Made by a program: the position numbers and the translations under genes
Part shown: one piece after another, positions 32,828 through 34,399 of the stretch
Layout of the letters: each line of letters begins with the position of its first letter
Numbering within the stretch: position 1 is the first letter of the stretch
Assembly (NCBI GenBank): GCA_013298595.1
Contig: JAAFIG010000011.1
Span: 61,090-125,089, forward strand
Source: Deinococcales bacterium
GTDB taxonomy: Bacteria; Deinococcota; Deinococci; Deinococcales; JAAFIG01
Direction: 5' to 3'
Length of the DNA: 64,000 nucleotides
The notes under the pieces: model-generated
Told to the model about the DNA's origin: nothing
Seen by the model: the letters and a program-made list of their open reading frames with translations, nothing else
Databases searched by the model: none

Positions 32828-32857
32828 TTGACAGCGCTGTGAAAAGCACCTTAAACT
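32828..32857 (+). promoter_or_regulatory. mgtE promoter
   Basis: TTGACA at 32828-32833 and TAAACT at 32852-32857, 18 bp apart. Predicted start is near 32864, which gives a leader of about 168 nt before mgtE, unlike the leaderless promoters elsewhere. The DNA from 32646 to 32827 shows nothing else that I can support. Confidence 0.55.
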
Positions 32858-32907
32858 GCATTCAGATTTTTCGAGTGTTTTTGCTCGAGTATCAGAAAGC
32901 AGGTGAT

Positions 32908-32991
32908 ATGAAACCCGAAATCAGCAATACAGCCGATCCAGAGCCGTTAAGTCGTTGCGGGGTTCTTGCCTGGGCTGCGTTTTTGGCTTGA
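32908..32991 (+). CDS. Candidate leader peptide upstream of mgtE
   Basis: A 27-residue frame with AGG 4 nt before the ATG. It reads MKPEISNTADPEPLSRC... and ends GVLAWAAFLA. Codons 10-13 encode Asp-Pro-Glu-Pro. The stop codon lies inside the right arm of a hairpin at 32959-32996. MgtL, the leader peptide of the enterobacterial magnesium transporter gene mgtA, carries a similar acidic/proline stretch that destabilises ribosomes at low magnesium. Here the frame sits before a magnesium transporter gene too. The function is inferred from position and composition only. Confidence 0.45.
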   Translation: MKPEISNTADPEPLSRCGVLAWAAFLA

Positions 32992-32996
32992 ACCCC
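32959..32996 (+). promoter_or_regulatory. Leader hairpin upstream of mgtE
   Basis: GGGGTTC (32959-32965) pairs with GAACCCC (32990-32996). An inner GCC/GGC pairing extends the stem across a symmetric TT/TT loop. The left arm is inside the leader peptide frame and the right arm covers its stop. No U-run follows, so it is not a simple terminator. Confidence 0.5.
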
Positions 32997-33000
32997 TACC

Positions 33001-33017
33001 TGACCACACTGTGGTCA
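33001..33017 (+). promoter_or_regulatory. Second leader hairpin before mgtE ribosome site
   Basis: TGACCAC (33001-33007) and GTGGTCA (33011-33017) with a three-base loop, four bases before the GGAGG ribosome site of mgtE at 33021-33025. Confidence 0.5.
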
Positions 33018-33031
33018 AGAGGAGGTGAGTC

Positions 33032-34399
33032 ATGAATACTACGCTGGAACAAGTTTTTACACCTGCCGAGGTACTGGCAGTGTTACGAGAAGGCGAACGT
33101 CTCGAGTTTAAGGCATTGTTGCGTTCACAATCCGAGCAAGTGGTAGATGCAGCATTTCAGGATGCCAATTTTGCTGAACGCCTCGAGTTTTTGCGTTTAT
33201 TGCCTGTGGAACGAGCCGCCAGTACATTTACGGATTTATCCTTGTCCGAACAAGCTGAGTATGTGACAGATATCTCGGCTGATCGTTTACGGATTATGGG
33301 TGCGTTTATCGGACCAGACGAAATTGCCGATTTACTCCAAGAATTAGGGGTGGGCGAACCGCGAACATATTTACTCAATGCCTTGCCATCCACGCTCACC
33401 TCGAGTGCGTTGTCTTTATTGCAATACGAGGATGACGACGCTGGTGGCATGATGACCTCGGAATTTGTGGCAGTCAAAGAAGGTTGGACAGTGCAACATG
33501 CTTTGCAGTTTTTGCGTTTAGCCGCCGACCATGCCGAAACCGTAGCAAATTTGTATTTGGTCAATGCAGAAGGTCAATTAACAGGCGTGATTACGTTGCA
33601 AGCCTTGGTGACAGCGCCACCTCGAGCGAAGGTGGATGATATTGCACGCCGTGAAGTAATTTTTGCGCGTACCGATACAGATCAAGAAGAAGTAGCCCGT
33701 TTAATGCGTGATTACGATTTAAATATTATGCCAGTCATAGACGAAAACAGTGTGCTTAAAGGTATTATTACCATTGACGATGTTTTAGATGTGATCGAAG
33801 AAGAAGCCACCGAAGATATCTATAAAGGCGCTGCAATGGAAGGCTCGGAGATTGATTATCTGCGTACCAGCCCATTTGAATTGTGGCGTAAACGCGTGTT
33901 GTGGCTAGCGGCATTGTCTGTGTCGGAACTATTGACGGTTGCTGTCAATTCTAATTACGAGGATTTACTGAAAACCCAAATTATTTTGCAAAGTTATATC
34001 GCTGCATTGATTGGTACTGGTGGTAATACGGGTTCGCAAAGTGCGGTGCTGATTGTGCGTGCCATTTCGCAAGGACAAATTCGCGGACGAGATGCTTTAA
34101 AGGTTTTTGCTAAAGAATTCAGCACTGGCTTATTGCTTGGTGTGACCTTAGCAGTTTTTGCTTTTGTACGCGTTTTATTGATTAATCAAAAAGCAGGTCC
34201 AAGCGTTGCCCTTGCCATTGCCTTATCAGTTTTTGCCATTGTTTTGGTTTCTAATATTGTTGGGGCACTTTTACCAATTGGTTTTTATAAATTAAAAATA
34301 GACCCTGCTTTAACCTCGAGTCCGTTCTTAGCAACAGTTATGGATGCTACAGGCTTATTGATTTATTTTAATATTGCCAAAGTTGTGCTGGGTATCTAA
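33032..34399 (+). CDS. mgtE: Magnesium transporter MgtE
   Basis: 455 residues. The N-terminal helical domain (about 1-130) contains LRLLPVERAASTFTDLS. Two CBS domains (about 135-260) include DDDAGGMMTSEFVAV and LNIMPVIDENSVLKGIITIDDVLDVIEEEATEDIYK. Five C-terminal membrane helices carry AALIGTGGNTGSQSAVL, the conserved pore segment. MgtE is a gated magnesium channel closed by cytosolic magnesium bound to the N and CBS domains. It has a good ribosome site and an unusual long leader (see the leader peptide entry). A 690-bp stretch without CTCGAG covers the CBS end and membrane part. Confidence 0.95.
   Translation: MNTTLEQVFTPAEVLAVLREGERLEFKALLRSQSEQVVDAAFQDANFAERLEFLRLLPVERAASTFTDLSLSEQAEYVTDISADRLRIMGAFIGPDEIADLLQELGVGEPRTYLLNALPSTLTSSALSLLQYEDDDAGGMMTSEFVAVKEGWTVQHALQFLRLAADHAETVANLYLVNAEGQLTGVITLQALVTAPPRAKVDDIARREVIFARTDTDQEEVARLMRDYDLNIMPVIDENSVLKGIITIDDVLDVIEEEATEDIYKGAAMEGSEIDYLRTSPFELWRKRVLWLAALSVSELLTVAVNSNYEDLLKTQIILQSYIAALIGTGGNTGSQSAVLIVRAISQGQIRGRDALKVFAKEFSTGLLLGVTLAVFAFVRVLLINQKAGPSVALAIALSVFAIVLVSNIVGALLPIGFYKLKIDPALTSSPFLATVMDATGLLIYFNIAKVVLGI

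Follow-up and report, generated by a model that had tools for sequence, protein, structure and literature searches.

A conserved upstream reading frame and possible ribosome-operated attenuation in the mgtE leader of a Deinococcales bacterium

The mgtE leader in a Deinococcales metagenome-assembled genome (4.58 Mb) contains a short upstream open reading frame (uORF), whose end can fold into one hairpin and which is followed by a second hairpin and the mgtE Shine-Dalgarno (SD) sequence. The leader is best read as a ribosome-operated attenuator of mgtE, with low intracellular Mg2+ as the likeliest signal, and we give this reading an even chance of being right. Given the gene that is controlled, Mg2+ is a reasonable candidate for this signal.

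Location and parts of the leader

The window, which is the whole stretch of 64,000 nucleotides that was analysed, contains the following parts of the leader and its gene.

32828-32857, forward strand: promoter-like site TTGACA-18 nt-TAAACT for the mgtE transcript, read from the sequence
32864-33031, forward strand: mgtE leader, with the transcript start placed near 32864 from the position of the promoter-like site
32901-32906, forward strand: uORF SD AGGTGA with short spacing to the ATG; AAAGCAGGTGATATGAAACC is unchanged in the sister species
32908-32991, forward strand: uORF of 27 codons encoding MKPEISNTADPEPLSRCGVLAWAAFLA and a stop (ATG at 32908, TGA at 32989-32991); position kept in 4 of 4 family genomes
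32935-32946, forward strand: Asp-Pro-Glu-Pro (DPEP), uORF codons 10-13; identical in the sister except GAT/GAC
32959-32965, forward strand: segment B, GGGGTTC, which forms the left arm of hairpin 1 and lies in uORF codons 18-20; same in the sister leader L003
32990-32996, forward strand: segment C, GAACCCC, which forms the right arm of hairpin 1 and overlaps with the uORF stop; same in L003
32992-33000, forward strand: anti-SD segment ACCCCTACC, predicted partner of the mgtE SD region 33018-33026 (P 0.87 by folding)
33001-33017, forward strand: hairpin 2 with exact 7-bp arms, TGACCAC (33001-33007) and GTGGTCA (33011-33017), just 5' of the mgtE SD
33020-33025, forward strand: segment D, the mgtE SD AGGAGG, read from the sequence
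33032-34399, forward strand: mgtE, 455 aa, with MgtE_N, two CBS and the MgtE transmembrane domain (domain search)

The first-pass annotation had described a leader of about 168 nt with a 27-codon frame carrying DPEP at codons 10-13, a 7-bp hairpin whose left arm is formed by later uORF codons and whose right arm holds the stop, and a second hairpin before the mgtE ribosome site. All of these parts lie where it had placed them, the first hairpin being read directly as GGGGTTC/GAACCCC and the second being found as TGACCAC/GTGGTCA. The 7-bp B/C pairing of hairpin 1 is extended by GCC/GGC, and in the minimum free energy fold of the window leader GAGCC (32941-32945) is able to pair with part of the left arm. 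The anti-SD segment overlaps segment C, so that hairpin 1 and the pairing that hides the mgtE SD are mutually exclusive. The gene itself is present as a single copy in the source genome, with the complete MgtE domain set, and is preceded by a histidine kinase/LytTR regulator pair.

Inside the uORF, a run of five T (32980-32984) follows a possible CAGCC/GGCTG stem and was considered as a possible weak terminator. Its counterpart in L003 is CCGTTTTGG, and the candidate was dropped because the run is absent from the leaders of two other genera (L004 and L005).

In dinucleotide-shuffled leaders, an SD-preceded ATG uORF of 20-45 codons occurred in 1.1% and at least two exact 7-bp hairpins in 3.9%, and the overall folding energy of the window leader is ordinary (z -1.25). 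The uORF and the hairpins are thus each modest evidence when compared with shuffles, and it is conservation that decides. The complementarity between anti-SD and SD in the window leader does not exceed that of shuffled sequence (p 0.6), and among the family leaders only L005 stands above the shuffles.

Conservation in the Deinococcales family

The family comparison covered four genomes (that of the window, G001, G002 and G003), each with one mgtE of this kind. It turned out that all four leaders have the same order, namely TTGACA-17/18-TA(A/G)A(A/C)T, then the uORF and then the mgtE SD, the promoters of the three relatives being assigned by eye. In the sister species of the same genus (G001, leader L003), the uORF encodes MKPQLQPNSNADPEPLSRRGVHVAVLV and a stop, with AAAGCAGGTGATATGAAACC, the ADPEPLSR block, GGGGTTC and TGAACCCC kept and with both arms of hairpin 1 and the stop retained. 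Relative to the window there are two in-frame 6-nt indels, one on each side of the ADPEPLSR block, and the DNA 5' of the promoter is not similar. The uORF position held in 4 of 4 genomes, though this upstream DNA is dissimilar in the sister, supports the attenuator reading.

The uORFs of the two other genera (G002 and G003) encode MEPIPSSGLLKSNAGFQAAPSAD and MEPIPSSGSVPLSCTCRCSCHSPNKICLSS, each with a stop and both starting with MEPIPSSG. Between these two leaders the 25 nt from the uORF ATG are identical, whereas in their mgtE genes none of the 427 stretches of eight codons is. DPEP is confined to the genus of the window, in which the uORFs start with MKP and carry DPEP at codons 10-13 or 12-15, while L004 and L005 have their acid/proline residues at the start (MEPIP). 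Each of the two conserved uORF blocks is confined to two genomes, with a single copy in each, which lies before mgtE. The window leader used as a DNA query gave no further copies elsewhere in the genomes, and the corA leaders of the family genomes gave no similar uORF leader. Conservation in relatives had been named in the first pass as the check on its proposal: the frame is at the same place in the four genomes, with in-frame indels in the sister, and both DPEP and the hairpin are kept in the sister, but DPEP does not extend to the genera of L004 and L005.

Constraint on the peptide and on the RNA

At fourfold-degenerate sites of the conserved uORF blocks, 6 of 6 are identical between the window and L003 (p 0.003) and 4 of 4 between L004 and L005 (p 0.015), against 38% and 35%, respectively, in mgtE. 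This complete identity indicates that RNA pairing or the exact codons are under constraint and not the peptide alone, and it is the main reason why a peptide-only reading was not accepted. The reading frame is kept through indels despite the identity of wobble sites, and with start and stop aligned the uORF lengths differ by multiples of three, with the exception of one broken case. For the Thermus and Meiothermus uORFs, pN/pS calculated by frame gave a frame 2 as constrained as frame 0, by which selection on peptide and on RNA is not separated.

The identical wobble sites also favour a sensor at the RNA level, which would be riboswitch-like and perhaps bind Mg2+ or another ligand, with the uORF incidental or part of the expression platform. 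Besides, the covarying multi-helix fold of the Meiothermus-type leaders (see below) includes the uORF ribosome site, and there are precedents in the M-box and, as far as its description goes, in the Thioalkalivibrio mgtE motif. We nevertheless consider such a sensor unlikely, because the uORF length differences are almost all multiples of three, the family leaders have little common structure beyond their short hairpins, and the Rfam covariance search of the window leader and those of its relatives, run at the gathering threshold and at a permissive E-value, gave no match, M-box included.

Predicted folding and polarity of the switch

The leaders were folded by nearest-neighbour equilibrium calculation, in which the ribosome was modelled as a 30-nt mask. 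In the full-length window leader, C:D is formed at 87% and B:C at 0.3%, i.e. hairpin 1 is a predicted minor form, and a ribosome placed on the DPEP codons raises B:C at equilibrium to no more than about 2-4%. As the transcript grows, 97-99% B:C is predicted up to the point at which the SD is transcribed, after which C:D takes its place. When a ribosome is placed near the uORF stop, the predicted accessibility of the mgtE SD rises from 0.17 to 0.65 in the window, from 0.26 to 0.51 in L003, from 0.05 to 0.53 in L004 and from 0.00 to 0.41 in L005, and in the window and L005 smaller rises are found for a ribosome at codons 4-6. L003 folds differently, in that B is paired to the uORF ribosome site; once an initiating ribosome covers this site, B:C appears. 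These family results are predictions of limited weight; the different fold of L003 and the window anti-SD pairing at shuffled level count against the attenuator reading.

In the attenuator that we propose, the position of the ribosome on the uORF would select the pairing around the mgtE ribosome site. In mature RNA that carries no ribosome, the mgtE SD would be hidden in C:D. If a ribosome were slowed on the codons rich in Asp, Glu and Pro, it would cover GAGCC and end 2-3 nt short of B (with a 30-nt footprint), and the co-transcriptional B:C could then survive and keep the SD free; the SD would likewise be exposed by a ribosome near the uORF stop. Low intracellular Mg2+ would weaken or slow elongation on these codons, and mgtE expression would rise as Mg2+ falls. 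Since B:C is rare at equilibrium, the proposed switch needs kinetic trapping.

A sensor of the MgtL type would use the ribosome in another way, with low Mg2+ dissociating it at DPEP, so that drop-off means ON and full translation of the uORF means OFF. The acid/proline motif is like the EPDP of MgtL (PMC11282234) and the DPEP codons are kept in the sister. In the models, however, all four family leaders open the SD with a ribosome near the stop and are mostly closed when free of ribosomes, and DPEP is missing in the other two genera, where MEPIP is found. Early drop-off is predicted to leave the family mgtE SD closed, the reverse of MgtL, unless the co-transcriptional B:C persists, and we regard this type of sensor as improbable here. 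What stands of the MgtL-like sensor proposed in the first-pass annotation is a conserved uORF with hairpins that is tied to mgtE and has Asp, Glu and Pro in the early part of its peptide, for which MgtL is a fitting analogy (PMC11552253, PMC11282234); the folding polarity and the range of DPEP do not agree with the proposal. The magnesium/drop-off mechanism is plausible, and the fourfold-site identity together with the predicted SD-hidden state after drop-off weighs against its simple form. Its independent evolution, which had also been suggested, may hold; the likeness to MgtL is a short low-complexity motif, compatible with a separate origin as well as with homology to the enteric leader.

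The same rises of SD accessibility (the window, L004 and L005) would also be expected from plain translational coupling, in which ribosomes ending the uORF open the mgtE SD without any sensing role. We hold this to be very improbable, as coupling leaves the conserved N-terminal and middle codons, the wobble positions and the occurrence before mgtE only unexplained.

Comparison with known systems

In attenuation of the erm/trp type, four leader segments form exclusive pairs, and the position of the ribosome on the leader peptide chooses between them. The mgtE leaders may have a like arrangement of segments, which is clearest in Thermus, but they are without a known drug signal or a run of codons for one amino acid. 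In the window the segments for such exclusive pairing are present and kept in the sister, with the anti-SD pairing not above shuffles.

MgtL relies on its EPDP stretch, on a loss of ribosomes that depends on Mg2+, and on Rho (PMC11282234, PMC11552253). The mgtL leader of mgtA in E. coli and Salmonella resembles the leaders described here in its short uORF, downstream Mg2+ transporter gene and mutually exclusive leader structures and, less clearly, in its early acid/proline codons, which are expected at or near codons 2-5 in leaders of this type (PMC11552253, PMC11282234). The uORF of the window leader, also short and with a ribosome site of its own, likewise stands before such a gene. The mgtL leader differs in that its target is a P-type ATPase and not MgtE and its output is Rho-dependent termination, whereas the visible target in the window is the mgtE ribosome site and folding of the family predicts the other polarity.

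The M-box expression platform of M. tuberculosis pe20 works by exchange between SD1, anti-SD and SD2 (PMC12810186). Similarly, the anti-SD of L004, L005 and the Meiothermus-type leaders could, by eye, pair with the uORF SD or the downstream SD; the pe20 platform sits after an M-box aptamer, however, and in the mgtE leaders here the covariance search found neither an M-box nor another Rfam family. M-boxes precede mgtE in some species, not all (PMC9276622), and the Thioalkalivibrio mgtE motif is a riboswitch candidate (PMC11109978). Like our leaders, both are structured RNAs that precede mgtE and hold the SD within a stem (PMC9276622; for the motif, PMC11109978 as far as its description goes). 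Both come from other organisms, and the Thioalkalivibrio motif is set apart by its description, which in the part concerned is given without a uORF. In a full-text search of the open-licence literature we found no account of an mgtE leader peptide, which is weak evidence of novelty.

Leaders of mgtE in Thermus, Meiothermus-type and other genomes

The wider genome searches covered 111 genomes, and most Thermus and Meiothermus relatives apparently carry differing forms of a translation-controlled mgtE switch. In Thermus (g7), mgtE has a near-leaderless uORF of 11-13 codons, M..(L/F/S)P(S/P)S..., in a short and almost invariant leader. At 25 of 26 loci a perfect hairpin, TGA(A/G)GGCCGC / GCGGCCTTC(A/G), carries the uORF TGA in its left arm, and its right arm (GGCGGCC) has an alternative partner, GGAGGCCGCC, at the mgtE SD. 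In the models, a ribosome on the last uORF codons closes the mgtE SD (0.00-0.06), and with an early or absent ribosome the SD is more open in L006, L010 and L017 and nearly closed throughout in L016. The Thermus leaders are thus predicted to have an MgtL-like polarity, opposite to that of the Deinococcales family, and it is here that modelling favours drop-off as the ON state.

The Meiothermus-type genera (g13, which we take to be Meiothermus, g23 and g24) and the f4 genome G006 (presumably Marinithermus) have another uORF, GTG-started, of the form ME(D/G)..S..R(R/Q). It lies inside the covarying multi-helix fold mentioned above, with a covariation score of 0.200 against 0.134 in shuffled and less than 0.1 in slid alignments, and the covariance model of this fold matched in 22 genomes, each time at mgtE. 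Anti-SD segments were seen by eye to change together with the facing mgtE SD (CTTCCTTC/GAAGGAGG and CTTTCTCCC/GGGGGAAA). These parallel uORF/hairpin leaders in Thermus, the Meiothermus-type genera and one f4 genome support the attenuator reading. By eye, no such uORF was found before mgtE in f3, in f4 g10/g16, in f5 g25 and in the g13 genome G059, and the cyanobacterial, Gemmatimonadetes and other mgtE leaders gave no common strong uORF.

A broader reading, which we regard as doubtful, is that the MgtE channels of Deinococcota are under widespread and fast-diverging leader-peptide attenuators, which sense Mg2+ via ribosome stability on acid/proline codons and evolved separately from mgtL, with the Thermus lineage, the source of MgtE structures, included. 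If it is true, translation itself would gauge Mg2+ for a second class of transporter, in a phylum without an M-box among the mgtE leaders tested here; the same principle would have evolved repeatedly, and it could be tested in Thermus, which is genetically tractable.

Broken uORFs, additional mgtE copies and iterated sites

Several single loci depart from these patterns. The uORF is broken in L015 (G040; ATG to ATT, with stop and hairpin lost) and in L124 (G019; frame lost), and in each of these two genomes there is another mgtE at a distance, preceded by an acid/proline-containing uORF of its own. For the second mgtE copies L180, L181, L182 and L183, the upstream uORFs start with MEGPSRS, MREESPRSHP, MEEPGSS and MREEGPQSHP, respectively, the choice of start being ambiguous in L181 and L183. 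In an f3 genome, L216 (G023:C1:977528-977606) is a weak match to the Meiothermus-type leader model (E 4.7e-4).

Besides, CTCGAG occurs 392 times in the window (1-64000), roughly once per 163 bases, where about 6 copies are expected from shuffles. It is also common in the leaders of other family members, and in its iteration it is similar to the highly iterated palindromes found in cyanobacteria.
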